Source: Polyangiaceae bacterium (GTDB lineage: Bacteria; Myxococcota_A; Polyangia; Polyangiales; Polyangiaceae). Taken from it: 64,000 bases of DNA. Positions within the stretch are counted from its first letter, which is position 1. Each line of letters starts with the position of its first letter. Both the position numbers and the translations under genes were made by a program. The stretch is from contig JAHBVX010000002.1 of NCBI GenBank assembly GCA_019637295.1, positions 868,001 to 932,000 of the forward strand, in the 5' to 3' direction. Below are positions 36,874 through 46,897 of this stretch, in pieces. The notes under the pieces are model-generated. The model saw only the letters and a list, made by a program, of their open reading frames with translations, did no database searches and was not told where the DNA came from.

Positions 36874-37896
36874 CTAGCGGAGTTCGACGCGTCCGGCGTC
36901 CGCGGTCAGCTCTCCGAGCACGGCCGCGGGCGGCCCAAGCTCTGCGACCAGCGCGTCTGCGTCTTCCGCTGACAGGCACAGCAAGAGCCCCCCACTGGTC
37001 TGGGCGTCGGCCAAGAGCAGGCGCAGGGCTGTCTCGAGCGGGGGACCCGTGAGCCGATGCTCGACATAGGCGGCGTTGCGCTTGCTACCACCGGGCAAGT
37101 GCCCTGCTCGTGCGGCGGCGAGCGCCCCGGGCAGCAGCGGCACGCGTTCGGTTTGCACCACTGCGCCGACACCGCTCGCGTCCAGTATGTGGCCCAAGTG
37201 CCCGAGGAAGCCGAACCCTGTCACGTCGGTAGCGGCGGTCACCCGGTGGACCCGACCGAGCTCGGCGGCGCGCGCGTTGAGCGTGCACATCGACTCGACC
37301 GCCGCCGTCAGGGCCATGTCGTCGATCGCATCTGCCCGCAGCGCCTGGGCGAGCACGCCGGTGCCGAGCGCCTTGGTGAGCACCAGTCGTTGTCCTGCGC
37401 TTGCGCGGGTGTGGCTCCATGCCTGTCCCGCCTGTACGGAGCCGACCACCGCCAGTCCGGCCTTGGGCTCGCTGTCTCGAATCGTGTGACCGCCCACGAT
37501 GGCGACGGCTGCGTCTTGGCACGTCGCGCTCATTCCCTCGAGGATCTGCCGCAGCACTTCCAGCCCGAGGGCGTCGGGAGCGCCGACGAAGCTGAGCGCC
37601 ACCTGGGGACGGCCGCCCATCGCGTAGACGTCGCTCAGCGCGTTGGCGGCGGCGATGCGACCGAAGGCGCGGGGCTCGTCGACCAGCGGCGTGATCACAT
37701 CCAGAGTCAGCACGAGCTGGGCGCTCGCGCCCTCCGGACGCACGAGTGCCGCGTCGTCCAGGGGCCCCGTGTCGGAGCTGACCCAACGATGAGCGACCGT
37801 GGGGAGGTGTCTCAGGACCTCGACCAGGTCCTCGGCGGGGAGCTTACGCGCTCAACCGCCGCCCTGAACGAGCTTCGTCAGTCGGATCGACGTCAC
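36874..37896 (-). CDS. selD: Selenophosphate synthetase with Sec at the catalytic position (UGA 37852-37854)
   Basis: 340 residues from GTG 37896 when UGA at 37852-37854 is read as Sec15. An AAAGGAGGT Shine-Dalgarno lies 6-8 nt upstream, strong support for this start. The N-terminus IRLTKLVQGGG-U-ARKLPAEDLVEVL aligns with the SelD catalytic loop where E. coli has Cys17; Lys18 fits the ATP-site Lys. The rest is standard SelD: VSSDTGPLDD, TLDVITPLVDEPRAFGRIAAANALSDVYAMGG, GGHTIRDSEPKAGLAVVG, LTKALGTGVL, TDVTGFGFLGH, DAQTSGGLL. It makes selenophosphate for Sec-tRNA. Without recoding, gene calling would start at 37743 and lose the active site. A SECIS candidate follows the UGA. Confidence 0.92.
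37814..37854 (-). promoter_or_regulatory. UGA and candidate bacterial SECIS hairpin in selD
   Basis: On the coding strand, 19 nt after the UGA, AGGACC (37832-37827) and GGTCCT (37819-37814) make a perfect 6-bp stem around a 7-base loop TGGTCGA. GGTC in the loop resembles the apical GGUC of E. coli SECIS elements. The loop begins 25 nt after the UGA, within the range reported for bacterial SECIS. Confidence 0.65.
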
Positions 37897-38618: not shown

Positions 38619-39719
38619 ATGACGTCGACCCGCTACGACGAGAAGCCGTTCATCGCCATCTGGGAGCTCACCCAGGCCTGCGATCTGATGTGCCTCCACT
38701 GTCGGGCCTGCGCCATCCCTGACCGTGATCCTCAGGAGCTCTCCACCCGAGAAGGCAAGAAGCTCCTCGACGACCTGGCGGCAGCCAAGGTCCCTCTGGT
38801 GGTGCTCACGGGCGGGGATCCGGCCAAGCGCGCCGACCTGGTCGAGCTCGTCGCGTATGGGCGTGACGCCGGCCTGGGCATGGGGCTGACGCCGTCGACG
38901 ACGCCGCTCGTGACGCCAGAGCTGCTGACGGCGCTTCACCGCGCGGGGTTGTCGCGGCTCGCGGTCAGCATCGACGGTCCTACCGCGGACGTTCATGATG
39001 CGTTCCGAGGTGTGCCCGGCAGCTTCGATCAGTCGCTCCGCATCTTGGCCAGCGCGCGTGAGCTCGGCATCACGACGCAGGTCAACAGCAGCGTACACGC
39101 GGATCTCATCGGGCGCTTGGCGGAGACCGCCCAGGTCGTAGCAGACGCCGGCGCGGCCCTGTGGAGTGTCTTCTTCCTCGTGCCCACCGGGCGCGCGCGG
39201 GCGGACATGCTGCCAACGGCGCAGGCGGCCGAGGCGGCCCTGGAGCAGCTCGCGGACATCGCCGAGGAGGCGTCCTTTGCGCTGAAGACGACCGCGGCTC
39301 CCCACTATCGCCGCTTGCTGCTCGAGCGTCAGAAGCGAACGGGTCAGAAGCTGGCTCACGGCGTGCACGGCCAGCGCGCGCTTCGAATCAACGACGGCAG
39401 GGGCTTCGTGTTCGTCTCGCATCGAGGTGACATCTACCCTTCGGGCTTCCTGCCGGAGTGGTGTGGCAACGTTCGCGACGACAACGTGATCGAGGTGTAC
39501 CGGAATCACCCGCTGTTTCAGCGTCTGCGTGACCCCGACGCGTTGCTCGGCAAGTGCGGAGCGTGCGAGTACCGCTCGGTGTGCGGGGGTTCACGCGCGC
39601 GAGCCTTCGCCCTGACCGGCGATCCACTCGAGAGCGATGACCTCTGCGCCTATGTCCCGCCCGGCTACGAGGATCGTCCGCGACGGCAGCGGGTCTGGCT
39701 CGAGGTGCTCGGTGCATGA
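38619..39719 (+). CDS. Radical SAM/SPASM domain protein (TIGR04053-like)
   Basis: 366 residues from ATG 38619, supported by a gaaaggagg Shine-Dalgarno at 38601-38609. The radical SAM cluster is CDLMCLHC (LTQACDLMCLHCRAC). A C-terminal SPASM-type Cys set follows (WCGNVRDDN, CGACEYRSVCGGSRARAF, DLCAYVPPG), binding extra iron-sulfur clusters. The form LWELTQACDLMCLHCR resembles the TIGR04053 group, related to heme-modifying AhbC/D and NirJ. Substrate not certain; peptide or heme modification are the options. The YwiC-like gene overlaps its end by 8 bp, so they are co-translated. Confidence 0.9.
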   Translation: MTSTRYDEKPFIAIWELTQACDLMCLHCRACAIPDRDPQELSTREGKKLLDDLAAAKVPLVVLTGGDPAKRADLVELVAYGRDAGLGMGLTPSTTPLVTPELLTALHRAGLSRLAVSIDGPTADVHDAFRGVPGSFDQSLRILASARELGITTQVNSSVHADLIGRLAETAQVVADAGAALWSVFFLVPTGRARADMLPTAQAAEAALEQLADIAEEASFALKTTAAPHYRRLLLERQKRTGQKLAHGVHGQRALRINDGRGFVFVSHRGDIYPSGFLPEWCGNVRDDNVIEVYRNHPLFQRLRDPDALLGKCGACEYRSVCGGSRARAFALTGDPLESDDLCAYVPPGYEDRPRRQRVWLEVLGA

Positions 39720-42052: not shown

Positions 42053-43525
42053 TCAGCGGGCCCGGAGCAGGGCCTCGACCCGCGCGCGAACGTCCGTCGC
42101 CGTGGTCGTCTCCAGGGTGTGGCGTCGTCGACCGCTGGCGTCGAAGATCCACACGACGGGCAGCCCGGAGGCGCCGGCCAGGTGTCGTCGCGCGGCCGGG
42201 GAGTCGAAGTCCACGATCTCGACCCGGCGCACCGCGAGCTGCGGGTTGGCCGCCGCGAGCCGAGCGAGCTCACGATCGATGTCGTGGCAGGGTGCGCACC
42301 AGCTCGCCCAGAAGTCGATCACCGTCACCTTGCCAGCGACGATGGCCTCGGACAGCTCGAAGGACTCACCTCCCGTCGCCAGGTCGAGCACGTCACCCCC
42401 CGCTGCGCCGGGCTCGTCCGCTTCGTGAGCGTGGTCGTCGTCGTGAGCGTGGTCGCAGTGCTCGTGACCCGCTCGCCGTGTTGGGGGCGGCGCGAGATCG
42501 AAGCCCCAGCTCGCTCCCAGACCCACCACGACGGGCACGTCGATCTGCCCGCCTCGCTCGTGCACCGTGAAGGGACGCTTGAGCAGCGCGTGCAGCGAAA
42601 GCTCCGGCGCGGGGCGCCAGAAGAGCCCTGCGGTGGCGATGATGTCCGTGCGCCCGCTGTTGACCGACTCGGCGCCATCCTCCCACGTCGACGGCTGCTC
42701 GTGGAAGACCTCGGGGCCGAGCGCGAACCTCACGCTCTCGAGGCCGAACCCGGTCTGCGGCAGCACGCCGGCCGAGACGCGGGTCCCCGCCCGGTAGCCG
42801 CGGGGATTGTCCCACAGGCTCGCGCGCACGCTCAGCCAGGAAGCCACGGTGAGCTGTCCAGCGCGGTGGGTGACGTCGACCCCGCCGATCGGATCGAGCG
42901 TACCGCTGCCGAAGAAGATGTGCTGGTGCGCGCGGCCACGACGCCCGAGCGCGAACGGATTGTCCTCGATGTTGCCCGTGGGCAGCGCGGTGCCGGCGCG
43001 CAAGTCGACGGTCCAGGGTCCGGCCCCGGGTCGCGTCAAGCGCAGCCGATTGTACAGCTCCACGTCGCCTATCCCCGTGAGCGTCTCGTTGCGATGGTGG
43101 ATGCTCTCGTAGCTCGCCAGCTCACCTCCGTCAGCGTCGAGGAACTTCGCGTCGATGTCCACGACGCGAAACGGCACGCGAAGCTCCAGGGCGAGCTTGG
43201 GCCCGAGGCCCACGCCCAGGTTCAGGGCCACGTCCAGCAAGCGCATGTGGATGACGTGCTCCGCGGCTTGCTCGTTCTTCGGCAGGCCCGTGGCCGGATC
43301 GACCTCGAGCTGATCGAGCCCCACCGGATGTGACGCGTTCACGAGGGTGCCGACCATGTCGAGCCCGAGCCGCAAGCGGCCGAGCGCGAGATCACTGACT
43401 GGGGACGTCCCTCCACCCGGGAGGTTGGGATTGCTTCAGGCCGCTCACCCGGCGGAGAACGACGGGTGGCTGTACAGCAGAACGGCCGCGACCATCCCGC
43501 ACACGGTCAGAAACCTCAGCTTCAT
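42053..43525 (-). CDS. Two-Sec (UxxU) outer-membrane beta-barrel/His-rich/thioredoxin fusion
   Basis: 490 residues from ATG 43525, with in-frame UGAs at 43445-43447 (U27) and 43436-43438 (U30). A clean signal peptide MKLRFLTVCGMVAAVLLYS...SFSAG comes directly before U-A-A-U-SNPNLPGGG. The UGAs lie in a CxxC-like slot just after the predicted cleavage site. About 300 residues of amphipathic strands follow and look like an outer-membrane barrel. Next is a His/Asp-rich linker HEHCDHAHDDDHAHE (about 354-368). A thioredoxin-like domain ends the protein, with WCAPC at about 409-413 and GLPVVWIF cis-Pro loop. Standard calling would start at 43375 and lose both signal peptide and Sec motif. It is divergent from carbonic anhydrase. 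Recoding is inferred. Confidence 0.75.
43410..43447 (-). promoter_or_regulatory. UGA-x-x-UGA and candidate bacterial SECIS hairpin in the barrel-thioredoxin gene
   Basis: On the coding strand, 11 nt after the second UGA, CCTCC (43424-43420) and GGAGG (43414-43410) make a 5-bp stem around loop CGGGT. The loop begins 16 nt after the UGA, matching bacterial SECIS spacing, and has GGGU at its apex as expected for SelB contact. One hairpin would have to serve both UGAs. Confidence 0.6.
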
Positions 43526-43631: not shown

Positions 43632-44291
43632 GTGCAGAAGCTGGTTCAGGGCAATCGCTCGTTCTTGCGCGGTTACTTCGCGACGCACCGGCAGCTCTTC
43701 GAGCAGCTGGCTAGCGCCGGGCAGCACCCGGAGACGCTGTTCATCACCTGCTCGGACTCGCGCATCGATCCGAACCTGATCACCAACGCGCCGCCGGGTG
43801 AGCTGTTCACGATTCGCAACGCCGGCAACCTCGTCCCCCACCCGAGTCTCCCCGGCGGTACTGCGGCGTCCGTCGAGTATGCGGTGGAGGTGCTCGAGGT
43901 GGAGAACATCATCGTCTGCGGTCACACCCAGTGCGGCGCCATCGACGCCATCCTGAACCCGGAGCGCATCACCCACCTGCCGTTCGTGAGCCGCTGGGTC
44001 GCGCAGGCCGCGAAGCTGCGCGAGATCCTGGAAGAACGCTACTCGCACCTCACGGGGGAGGCGCGCATGCTCGCGGCGGTGCAAGAGAACGTGCTGTGCC
44101 AGGTGGAGCATCTGCGCGAGTTCGAGCTGGTGCGGCGGCGCCTCGACGCCGGCAGGCTGCGGGTCAGCGCTTGGGTGCTTCGGCTGAGCACCGGCGAGGT
44201 GTTCGACTACGATCCGGACTGCGAGCAGTTCCTGCTGCTGCAGGACCCCACAGAAGAGGGCACCGGGCCGGTGTCGCTCGGATCGCCCTGA
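43632..44291 (+). CDS. Beta-class carbonic anhydrase
   Basis: 219 residues from GTG 43632. The beta-carbonic anhydrase motifs are intact: CSDSRIDPNLI supplies one zinc Cys and the Asp/Arg dyad, and VCGHTQCGAIDA supplies zinc His and the second Cys. IRNAGNLVPHP and GTAASVEYAVEVL match the family. It interconverts CO2 and bicarbonate in the cytoplasm. The gene diverges from the Sec-barrel gene with about 106 bp between them, and a shared control region is possible. Confidence 0.96.
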   Translation: MQKLVQGNRSFLRGYFATHRQLFEQLASAGQHPETLFITCSDSRIDPNLITNAPPGELFTIRNAGNLVPHPSLPGGTAASVEYAVEVLEVENIIVCGHTQCGAIDAILNPERITHLPFVSRWVAQAAKLREILEERYSHLTGEARMLAAVQENVLCQVEHLREFELVRRRLDAGRLRVSAWVLRLSTGEVFDYDPDCEQFLLLQDPTEEGTGPVSLGSP

Positions 44292-44298
44292 CCGGCGT

Positions 44299-45840
44299 CT
44301 ACTTACCGCAGTAGTAGCCGCCGACCTTGGCGATCCACTGCCCAGCGTTCCCGCTGAACTCGCAGAAGGCCCCGGGGCCGCTCAGCGCCGCTTGGGCGCA
44401 GTAGTAGCCGTTGACCCAGGACGCGCACTGTCCGCCCTGCTCGAACACCTGCTGGCGGCAGCCCGGGTCTTGTCCCGGGGAGCACTGATTGCACGACCCG
44501 TTGCTGCAGAACAGCGCGCAGGTCAGGTCGTGATTGCAGCTCGGCGTGAGGAACGGCGCCAGGCAGCGGGAGTAGGCCGAGTCCGTCGTGAACTGCAGCA
44601 GGCAGCCGTAACACTGCGGATTGCTCGTGAGCAGCGTCTGATAGTACTGCCCGCAGCCTGGCCCCGGAGGCGAGCCCTGGCACGCCGCGGCCAACGCGGA
44701 GAGCTCCTGGGCCGAGCAGCTGCTCGATGCGACGGGCGGTGGCGTCAGCGCATCGGGTGAGCAGCCGGGGTACGCGGCCGGACACGTGGAGCCCGAGCTG
44801 CAGGCCTGAGCGACGCAGCTCTGACCCTTCGTGGAGCAGTTGTCACAGAGCTTGCCGAACAGTCCGCAGGCGTCGGAGGACGAGCCCGTGACGCAGGTGC
44901 CATTGGCGGTGCAGCAGCCACCGCAGTTGTCCGGGCCGCAGTGGGGGCCCGAGTAGCAGAAGCCCGAGGCCGCACAGGCCTGACCCGTGGCGCTGCAGTC
45001 CTTGCAGGCCTGACCGGCGCTGCCGCAGGATTTGTCGAGCTGGCCGCTCTTGCACTGGCCGCTCGCGTCGCAGCAGCCCGCGGGGCACGTGAACGGTCCA
45101 CACGCCGGGAAGAAGGCGCAGTAGTTGCCCGGCTGCGTGCACGTCGTGCCGCTCGCGGTGCAGCTCTGACACGAAGCGCCGGCCTGTCCGCAGGCAGCGT
45201 TGGACGTGCCGGGTTGGCACTGGCCGGCGGCGGTGCAGCAGCCTCCGCAGTTGCCCGGTCCGCACGTCGGCGCAGGCCCCATGCAGGCGCTGTTCACGCA
45301 ACCCTGGCCGCTTGGGCCGCAGTCTTCGCACGCCTGCCCGCCCGTGCCGCAGGCGTCCGTCTCGGTGCCGAACCGACACAGTCCCGCGGCCGTACAGCAG
45401 CCATTGCACGTGCCGGGACCGCAGGGTGGGGCGGTCCCCTCGCAGGCGCCATTGAGGCACGCGAAGCCCAGCGCACCGCAGTCGAGGCAGGGCACGTTGC
45501 CGTCGCCGCACGCGTTGATGTCGTTACCCGGCCGACAGATGCCTGCCGGATCGCAGCATCCCGCGCAGGGGCCGCAGCCCGGCCCGCCGCCGATCCCGCC
45601 GCTGGCGCCGGTGCCGCTGCCGCCGGTCGCGCCGGTGCCGCTCGTACCGCCGAACGCCGACCCGCCCGCGCCGGACCCGCCGCCCGTGCCGCCGCCGCCC
45701 GCTCCGGCTGCGCCGGTCCCCGAGTCCCCGTTGGAGTCGTCGTCGACCACCGAGCGCCCGCAGCCGACGGCGAAGGCCAATGACGCTCCCATGAAGACGG
45801 CGACCGACTTCGCAACGCTCTGCCACACTCTTCGGGTCAT
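44299..45840 (-). CDS. Cys-rich repeat lipoprotein
   Basis: 513 residues from ATG 45840, which opens the signal MTRRVWQSVAKSVAVFMGASLAFAVGC (lipid Cys at 27). A Gly/Ser-rich linker follows, then about seven tandem ~40-residue repeats of the type CGPxxCxGCC-xxxG-xCxxG-xxxxACGxxGxxCxxC. These predict many disulfides or metal sites. A separate Cys-rich C-terminal domain (about 350-513) ends in a ...QWIAKVGGYYCGK tail. Cys content is extreme, so it is certainly extracytoplasmic. No family is recognised; the repeats resemble those in large myxobacterial surface proteins. It converges with carbonic anhydrase (7 bp apart). Confidence 0.82.
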   Translation of the reverse strand: MTRRVWQSVAKSVAVFMGASLAFAVGCGRSVVDDDSNGDSGTGAAGAGGGGTGGGSGAGGSAFGGTSGTGATGGSGTGASGGIGGGPGCGPCAGCCDPAGICRPGNDINACGDGNVPCLDCGALGFACLNGACEGTAPPCGPGTCNGCCTAAGLCRFGTETDACGTGGQACEDCGPSGQGCVNSACMGPAPTCGPGNCGGCCTAAGQCQPGTSNAACGQAGASCQSCTASGTTCTQPGNYCAFFPACGPFTCPAGCCDASGQCKSGQLDKSCGSAGQACKDCSATGQACAASGFCYSGPHCGPDNCGGCCTANGTCVTGSSSDACGLFGKLCDNCSTKGQSCVAQACSSGSTCPAAYPGCSPDALTPPPVASSSCSAQELSALAAACQGSPPGPGCGQYYQTLLTSNPQCYGCLLQFTTDSAYSRCLAPFLTPSCNHDLTCALFCSNGSCNQCSPGQDPGCRQQVFEQGGQCASWVNGYYCAQAALSGPGAFCEFSGNAGQWIAKVGGYYCGK

Positions 45841-45919
45841 GAGTCCTCCGCGCAGCCAAGCGTATCGCAGTTCGCATTCGGCTGCACCGATGGCGCTCGG
45901 GAGGGTACAGTCGGCGGCG

Positions 45920-46897
45920 ATGAAGGCGCGAGTTTCGCTGATCGAGGCGCTGGGAGTTCGCCCCTGGCGCACCACGGCGCGCCAGGCCTGGCTGGTGCTC
46001 CGGGGCGACGCCAATACGCCCAAGACTCGCTTCGATCGCACGAGCCTGCGCCAGTTTCGACCGCGCTATGCGCTACCCCTGTGGCTCGGCCTGCGCCCGA
46101 TGGGTCGGCGCGTGCCCATCACCAATTTGTTCAACTACCGCCAGCCGCCCCCGGAGCTCGGCTGGAGCGTGCGGGTCACGGACGTCGAGGACTTCCGCGG
46201 CGGAAAGAACACCTACGACAGCCACAACGGGACCGACTTCGCCGTTCCGCCCGGAACGCGGGTCCTCGCTGCGGCGCCCGGCGTCGTGCTCCGGGTCTCG
46301 AGCGAGTTTCACCGCGGCGGTCGCAAGGTGATCCTCGATCACGGGCGGGGGCTGGTCACTACCTACAACCACTTGGCGCGGCCCCTCGTCCAGCCGGGGC
46401 AGCGGGTTCGGCGGGGGGAAGTCATCGCGCTGTCCGGATACAGCGGGATCGACGCGTTGGTCGGCTTTCCATGGACCCCGCCCCACGTGCATTTCAACAC
46501 CTGGCACAACGGTGAGTACGTCGACCCCTTCACCCCCGCCGGCGGCGACGAGCCCTCGCTCTGGCGGCGACACAACGATCCGATCCCCGCGTCTCACGCG
46601 GACTTGGCCGATGAGCAGCTCGAGCCCACCCCCTGGGACCCGGCGCTGATCGAGCGGGTCGTGTCGGCCTGCCTGCACCCCGCTGCGCGCCAGGAGCTCC
46701 GAGCGCAGCCGACCCTCGGGCAGCAGGCCGGGGCCGCGCTGCTCCAGCTCAACTACTTTCCCACCCGCTTCGATCGGGACGCGCTCGGCGCGAGCGGCGG
46801 CCGAGTGCTGTACCCCGAGGCCTTTCCGCGGCAGCCGCGGATGGACCTGCCCTTCTCGTCGACGGACTACGACGGCGTGGTGTTCCCCGACTGGTGA
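45920..46897 (+). CDS. M23 (LytM-type) metallopeptidase-domain protein
   Basis: 325 residues from ATG 45920. The LytM/M23 domain (about 85-205) has HNGTDFAVPPGTRVLAAAPG, holding the first zinc His and Asp, then LVTTYNHLARPLVQPGQRVRRGEVIALSG and the HVHF zinc motif. Such enzymes cut peptidoglycan cross-links. No clear signal peptide is seen; the N-terminus is basic and helical, so the location is uncertain. The last ~110 residues lie outside the family. It is divergent from the Cys-rich lipoprotein; the DLH gene follows after 46 bp. Confidence 0.9.
   Translation: MKARVSLIEALGVRPWRTTARQAWLVLRGDANTPKTRFDRTSLRQFRPRYALPLWLGLRPMGRRVPITNLFNYRQPPPELGWSVRVTDVEDFRGGKNTYDSHNGTDFAVPPGTRVLAAAPGVVLRVSSEFHRGGRKVILDHGRGLVTTYNHLARPLVQPGQRVRRGEVIALSGYSGIDALVGFPWTPPHVHFNTWHNGEYVDPFTPAGGDEPSLWRRHNDPIPASHADLADEQLEPTPWDPALIERVVSACLHPAARQELRAQPTLGQQAGAALLQLNYFPTRFDRDALGASGGRVLYPEAFPRQPRMDLPFSSTDYDGVVFPDW

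Follow-up and report, generated by a model that had tools for sequence, protein, structure and literature searches.

Two selenocysteine codons at the head of a predicted outer-membrane barrel: a selenoprotein family common in Myxococcota

Two in-frame UGA codons and their conservation

Can two UGA codons lying nine bases apart both be read as selenocysteine (Sec, U) at the head of an outer-membrane protein? This question was raised by a gene in a stretch of 64,000 nucleotides, here called the window, from a Polyangiaceae bacterium (GenBank assembly GCA_019637295.1, contig JAHBVX010000002.1, positions 868,001 to 932,000; all positions below are counted from the first letter of the window). From frame reading and family comparison, the gene occupies 42053 to 43525 on the minus strand (490 codons plus stop). 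The original prediction had read the UGAs at 43445 and 43436 as Sec and extended the frame to ATG 43525, and it was confirmed that a single frame of 490 codons runs from this ATG to the stop at 42055 to 42053 when TGA is taken as Sec, with two internal TGAs and no other stop. We consider it near certain that the gene encodes a true selenoprotein, and we infer a role of this protein in metal handling.

The putative signal peptide (MKLRFLTVCGMVAAVLLYSHPSFSAG, residues 1 to 26, 43448 to 43525, from translation and hydropathy) is followed by the first UGA (Sec27, 43445 to 43447) and the second UGA (Sec30, 43436 to 43438), both on the minus strand like all parts of this gene, which gives the motif U-A-A-U at the predicted mature N-terminus. 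For comparison, 377 Myxococcota genomes were searched with the read-through protein, and dozens of relatives were marked with two TGAs. A total of 74 regions, that of the window included, were picked among the matches listed and therefore do not represent all relatives in the 377 genomes. The barrel profile matched 74 of the 74 chosen regions, several of which (L070, L077, L114, L119 and L120) had entered the set through C-terminal matches only. One copy cut by a contig end (L057) was left out of the site counts, leaving 73 readable copies, of which alignments A1, A2 and A3 hold 54, 32 and 43, respectively.

UxxU was found at the motif in 59 of the 73 copies, CxxC in 8 and CxxU in 4, with the remaining 2 having only the second Cys, so that U or C stood at both positions in 71 copies and at the second position in all 73. 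The original prediction had placed the two UGAs three codons apart, just after the cleavage site, and had named homologues with CxxC or UxxU at the same place as support; both points were borne out by these counts. Relatives of 24–48% identity had their UGAs at the same place. UAA or UAG was found at the motif in none of the 73 copies, in keeping with the earlier remark that UGA alone interrupts the extension. TAA or TAG was reported inside the matched stretch of some search rows (G054, G052, G091, G092, G117 and G219), and in the frames read of the family copies neither codon occurred between the motif and the stop. The residues inside the motif were variable (AA, PA, SG, AG, LG, TG, TA, PG, GA and others), and were usually followed by NPxL[PQ].

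All 73 copies had a hydrophobic segment directly 5' of the motif, as judged by hydropathy only (10-residue window, hydropathy of at least 1.8), which suggested that the motif lies at or near the mature N-terminus. UxxU was also considered as a lipobox and rejected: the −3 residue was Leu in only one of the 73 copies, and ordinary signal-peptidase cleavage was therefore thought likelier. The opposite view, that the UGAs are true stops and that the barrel begins later or the gene is dead, finds a basis in the plain list of open reading frames (ORFs), which starts the barrel frame at TTG 43375, 3' of both UGAs. However, such a start would leave a barrel without a signal peptide, so the plain ORF reading truncates the gene. 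Distant copies have retained both the UGAs and the hydrophobic segment, the hairpin described below exceeds its null, and by the same hydropathy measure no homologue among the 73 copies started after the UGAs with a signal peptide of its own. We regard this view as already refuted by the conservation, and its probability as negligible.

The family was also found in named genomes. A single-sequence scan of the named genome contigs found no relative, and the barrel-only profile (alignment A2) returned 99, of which 80 were kept. This named set (L121–L200) overlaps partly with the Myxococcota set (L047–L120). The 80 loci comprised 65 with UxxU, 6 with CxxU, 4 with CxxC, 4 with a lone Cys and one that was cut off. 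UxxU was present in Polyangium fumosum and Paraliomyxa miuraensis, as well as in bins titled Acidobacteriota, Planctomycetota and Candidatus Poribacteria, and CxxU in Pyxidicoccus caerfyrddinensis, Myxococcus sp. and Archangium violaceum. One bin titled Klebsiella pneumoniae (L193) also holds the barrel, and this title is very likely wrong. A tblastn search of plasmids with a Polyangium relative found none.

Copies with a single Sec always had it at the second position, which is the position that the hairpin spacing fits (4 of 4 copies in the Myxococcota set, 6 of 6 in the named set), and UxxC was not seen at the barrel motif in any of the 73 Myxococcota copies or 80 named loci. Six copies (L058, L067, L139, L140, L147 and L159) had only the second Cys, in the context [RQ]ATC. 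Two of them, L058 and L067, kept the PVG codons (as LPVG or VPVG) and had no His-rich linker, and were therefore read as likely relics of a Sec form.

SECIS hairpin and selenium machinery

A bacterial-type selenocysteine insertion sequence (SECIS) hairpin, with stem CCUCC/GGAGG and loop CGGGU, was located at 43410 to 43424, 11 nt 3' of the second UGA, where the original prediction had noticed a hairpin with a G-rich loop. The same spacing was found in the Sec forms of the family, with the loop carrying GGU in 35, GGG in 12 and GGC in 12 of 63 genes. Hairpin spacing and loop resemble those of the Escherichia coli fdhF element. The mean stem of the 63 Sec-form genes was 6.29 bp, compared with 3.13 bp (sd 0.20, maximum 3.73) in 1000 synonymous-codon shuffles that left each protein sequence unchanged, and none of the 1000 reached the observed value. 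For the 10 Cys-form genes, the mean was 2.8 bp against 2.2 bp in shuffles (sd 0.285, maximum 3.1), that is, little or no excess. Because the UGAs are kept in relatives of only 24–48% identity and the stem lies above all shuffles, the observation as a whole was taken to be beyond chance.

In two hairpin alignments (A5 and A6, split by protein sequence only), 99.4% and 92.0% of the pairing cells could pair, and none of 500 shuffles attained the covariation score in either alignment; an additional measure for each was unexceptional (209 and 94 of 500 shuffles, respectively). The hairpin is built from codons for LPxGG, and 53 of the 63 Sec forms have GG there, compared with none of the 8 CxxC forms. 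The same hairpin was found in six Acidobacteriota copies (stem 4 to 7). An Rfam SECIS_1 scan gave no match in the bacterium's own genome, nor in any of 14 control genomes, and was hence uninformative.

The absence of selB, selA or tRNA-Sec from the genome had been named as grounds for rejecting the prediction. All of them were present: tRNA-Sec with 70 bits (cut-off 47), SelB with 272.4 (cut-off 242.25) and SelA with an E-value of 2.8e-143. Since weak matches to tRNA-Sec and SelB occurred in 14 of 14 control genomes, these two were judged by the curated cut-offs, which they exceeded in only 5 and 2 of the 14 controls, respectively. SelD lies in the same window, about 4 kb from the barrel gene (TIGR00476, 315 bits). 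This SelD (36874 to 37896, minus strand, with the start at 37896 being a guess) is a selenoprotein itself, with UGA at 37854 to 37852 in the context LTKLVQGGG-U-ARK; the plain ORF list begins it late. Next to selD are genes for a cytochrome c (PF00034, 38013 to 38435, minus strand) and a TIGR04053-like radical SAM/SPASM protein (38700 to 39719, plus strand, 388 bits against a cut-off of 395).

Across 70 genomes with a readable site, one of which has a lone-Cys copy only, a SelA match (E ≤ 0.001) was found in 56 of 61 Sec-form genomes, two of these matches being fragments below the cut-off (G185 and G236), compared with 1 of 8 genomes having only CxxC (Fisher p = 5e-6). In 19 named genomes, which were our own pick among the 80 loci, SelA was present in 17 of 17 Sec-form and 0 of 2 CxxC genomes. 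Of 153 barrels, 116 entered a quick tree, the rest having been dropped as short rows, near-duplicates or copies in which the script had missed the motif. On this tree the CxxC state required three changes, and well-supported branches made two of these unavoidable. Sec and Cys were thus exchanged more than once. CxxC, found mostly in genomes without SelA, accompanies loss of the machinery, and selenium itself is therefore not required for the function.

Barrel, histidines and thioredoxin partner

The signal peptide, barrel, His-rich linker and WCAPC thioredoxin that had been proposed to form one chain were all present. The part of the mature protein beyond the motif is very probably a 12-stranded outer-membrane barrel, as modelled by AlphaFold2, which was run with Cys in place of Sec. 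The full protein was predicted with a mean local distance difference score (pLDDT) of 87.4, with the barrel at residues 50 to 343 (42497 to 43378) and the thioredoxin at residues 378 to 489 (42059 to 42394); the mature barrel alone reached 92.3. The best fold match of the mature barrel was the COG4313 channel 4rl8 (Z 24.5, root-mean-square deviation 2.8, 251 residues, 12% identity), followed by FapF (Z 23.5). A profile of the mature barrel gave no match to PDB sequences at E up to 1. PF13557 matched 4 of 43 family members (E ≤ 0.1, best 7.3e-6), and the protein of the window was not matched. In the model, residues from 1 on (pLDDT 77 and 70 in the first two blocks of ten) aligned with the autotransporters EspP and NalP, starting ahead of the first strand of those chains. 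In 4rl8, according to the available part of its description, about 14 N-terminal residues fold into the lumen and occlude it (PMC4493636). By analogy, UxxU probably lies in the pore, as part of a plug.

Six histidines of the barrel (His 66, 90, 143, 144, 200 and 202) were kept in 35 to 39 of the 40 main-clade Sec or lone-Cys rows of A1, and in 6 of 6 CxxC rows. His143-His144 (43094 to 43099) would stand at the extracellular barrel end and His200-x-His202 (42920 to 42928) in extracellular loop 3; both are common to most copies, and in one divergent clade the former is absent and the latter mostly so. From the order of the strands in the model, we infer that the conserved histidines lie at the extracellular end, or outer mouth, of the barrel.

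C-terminal to the barrel, a His-rich linker (HEHCDHAHDDDHAHEAD, about residues 350 to 376, 42398 to 42478, read from the translation and of low pLDDT) leads to the thioredoxin domain, which matched PF00085 with 31.2 bits (cut-off 23.5), superposed on thioredoxin chains with Z of 13 to 14, and carries the active site WCAPC (42287 to 42301). No HMA domain (PF00403) was matched in this barrel-thioredoxin protein. The fusion was found in 18 of the 73 copies, with a His-rich linker in 11 of the 18. The sole conserved neighbour of the family was a same-strand gene directly upstream, encoding a thioredoxin (36 loci by clustering and 44 of 73 by profile); the neighbour ORFs came from a simple caller of our own, by which 8 of the 44 upstream thioredoxin genes were missed. 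In the 80 named loci, the thioredoxin was upstream in 39 and fused in 21.

By eye, the upstream partner seems to be a secreted protein, often with a lipoprotein-like N-terminus, whose front part would bind metal. PF00403 was found in 23 of 38 upstream partners (E ≤ 0.01), 38 of the 44 being held in alignment A7; the partner of L049 scored 39.2 bits (cut-off 24.8) and that of L112 scored 18.9, below the cut-off. A Cys/His-rich front was present in 9 of 44 partners, and the one scanned singly gave no Pfam match. In eight genomes that were examined beyond the barrel locus, a separate HMA-thioredoxin gene occurred elsewhere in five where it was not adjacent. It was likewise found elsewhere in G054, where the upstream side is off the contig. 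G152 and G118 had a barrel-thioredoxin paralogue instead (L205, G152:C98, and L206, G118:C20); these second barrels are each accompanied by a thioredoxin-like protein, which has WWUGKC in one case and WWCGKC in the other. The HMA-thioredoxin partner of L135 (Acidobacteriota OFTM27) reads GLT-U-QSC, i.e. UxxC at the HMA metal-binding site, and it is possible that Sec occupies the CxxC site there.

Possible functions and known relatives

The best reading of these data, which we favour on balance, is a redox-controlled, metal-binding outer-membrane channel. In this mechanism, the selenol pair of UxxU, together with His where present, would bind a soft metal ion. A periplasmic thioredoxin, fused or from a separate gene, would reduce the Se–Se or Se–S bond, whereby metal would be bound or released, and metal would be exchanged in the periplasm by the partner's HMA domain or, where the thioredoxin is fused, by the His-rich linker. 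Electrons would be supplied to the thioredoxin by a DsbD-type protein, and a DsbD-type membrane domain was detected in the bacterium's own genome (163 bits). That the thioredoxin acts on UxxU is likely. That the protein handles metal is somewhat probable, and this was thought likelier than pure redox work because the thioredoxin is mostly a separate upstream gene, often with an HMA domain. The fuller version, in which the barrel is a widespread channel whose N-terminal plug carries the selenol/diselenide pair inside the pore and which is opened, closed or metal-loaded under periplasmic thioredoxin-HMA control, with both UGAs, separated by nine bases, sharing a single SECIS hairpin, is put forward only tentatively.

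Several observations weigh against this reading or parts of it. Five Sec-form genomes had no SelA (four of them with SelB over the cut-off, and one, 77% complete, with neither), and one CxxC genome (G264) retained both SelA and SelB. The Cys forms also showed a slight stem excess (2.8 against 2.2, sd 0.285), and the hairpin in its usual register was absent in three Planctomycetota and three Poribacteria copies (stem 0 to 2), although by eye the Poribacteria copies could form one a few bases later. These six copies (L192, L196 and L197 from Planctomycetota; L195, L198 and L199 from Poribacteria) have UxxU, and no thioredoxin was seen in the sequence stretch examined. More broadly, 11 of the 73 copies (one at a contig end) and 20 of the 80 named loci (several near contig ends) had neither an adjacent upstream nor a fused thioredoxin. 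No HMA match was given by 15 of the 38 upstream partners, and 7 of the 18 fused forms lacked a His-rich linker. The first two ten-residue blocks of the Cys-for-Sec model reached a pLDDT of only 77 and 70. The neighbour genes showed no metal theme: besides the thioredoxin gene, no neighbour cluster occurred in more than six loci, and of 242 neighbour ORFs, 131 were tallied by Pfam, with no family occurring in more than three. A single Planctomycetota locus (L196) has the barrel beside ZnuA (PF01297, 169.5 bits), a porin-like protein and a small Cys/His-rich protein. Finally, nearly all barrel histidines were missing from a divergent clade of fused forms, which comprises eight A1 rows with UxxU or CxxU (L068, L070, L077, L093, L107, L109, L114 and L119) and perhaps has a different substrate. 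Five of its members (L093, L107, L109, L114 and L119) had neither barrel His nor a His-rich linker, so that the metal reading is unsupported there, and our estimate for it was lowered slightly.

Those five members, which keep UxxU or CxxU, speak for the main rival, an outer-membrane redox enzyme without metal cargo, in which UxxU recycled by thioredoxin would reduce peroxides, disulfides or electrophiles entering the pore. UxxU beside a thioredoxin suits a selenol oxidoreductase, and the thioredoxin is the most constant partner. However, the HMA domain in 23 of 38 partners and the histidines kept in the main clade are at odds with pure redox work, and we consider this rival unlikely. The fold itself brings in a third candidate, a COG4313-type channel for hydrophobic molecules whose UxxU would either act on its substrate or redox-gate its plug: COG4313 gave the best fold match (Z 24.5), PF13557 matched 4 of 43 members, and the COG4313 family has been implicated in the uptake of hydrophobic molecules (PMC4493636, available part). 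Such a channel would leave no role for the histidines or the HMA partners, and no catabolic Pfam family was seen to recur among the 25 families that head the tally of the 131 neighbour ORFs, which makes it improbable. A porin for selenium uptake or sensing might be suggested by selD lying about 4 kb away in the window and by a SelA match in 1 of 131 neighbour ORFs. But that match is the only one among the 131, and because CxxC forms persist without SelA (7 of 8 genomes, and 2 of 2 named genomes), this role was set very low.

The relation of the redox-controlled metal channel to described proteins was also considered. The known bacterial UxxU selenoproteins are generally described as soluble domains. 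They share with the family two Sec residues three positions apart, but in the family UxxU heads a barrel, and this barrel had no NCBIfam match (0 of 43 members with any model at E 0.01; the full protein of the window gave thioredoxin-region matches only, all below cut-off). The copper outer-membrane barrel PcoB (7pge) is likewise linked to a soft metal, but its match (Z 12.5 over 189 residues) is far under that of COG4313, and we know of no Sec or thioredoxin partner of PcoB. The UxxU selenoproteins already tabulated for bacteria are Prx-like PF00578, metal-binding NF041115 ('putative mercuric reductase') and an FmdB-like protein (PMC13188914, available part). The same source tabulates outer-membrane selenoproteins, namely a TonB-dependent receptor of the FCYXU type (NF049945) and a GSU2204/MtrB-like protein (NF041027), each with one Sec, compared with two here. 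COG4313 channels (Pput2725, 4rl8; PF13557) share the 12-stranded fold with the window protein, which has no PF13557 match and 12% identity to 4rl8, and the available text on the latter mentions no Sec, CxxC or His cluster (PMC4493636). By description only, the porin-like ExtI of Geobacter, tied to selenite and tellurite reduction in the available part of its source (PMC5877670), shares an outer-membrane channel and selenium chemistry with the family.

The family was absent from the table of a 2026 review on 119 selenoprotein families (PMC13188914), and was not found in a 2022 review (PMC9312934), the GOS study (PMC2398784) or deep-Sep (PMC12013277), as far as the available text of each goes. 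No relevant literature on selenoproteins of Myxococcota or myxobacteria, or on HMA-thioredoxin selenoproteins, was found, with preprints and most subscription papers outside the search. Each element by itself, be it a selenoprotein, a UxxU motif or an outer-membrane selenoprotein, has been described before; their combination is new as far as searched, in agreement with the original prediction, which knew of no protein with UxxU, barrel, linker and thioredoxin. The results add a selenoprotein family that is common in Myxococcota and extends to records bearing the titles Acidobacteriota, Planctomycetota and Poribacteria; these searches found no described outer-membrane channel whose mature N-terminus carries two Sec residues. 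The family links selenium to partners with metal-binding domains, and if the proposed channel is real, selenium chemistry would gate or load an outer-membrane metal channel. It also makes it possible to test whether a single hairpin can serve two UGAs, and the named strains Polyangium fumosum DSM 14668, Pyxidicoccus caerfyrddinensis CA032A and Archangium violaceum Cb vi76 allow direct testing.

Two further genes flank the selenoprotein gene on its 5' side. A protein of repeated Cys-rich units is encoded at 44299 to 46041 (minus strand, no Pfam match at E 0.01), and between the two, divergent to the selenoprotein gene, lies a carbonic anhydrase gene at 43632 to 44291 (plus strand, PF00484, 156.9 bits).
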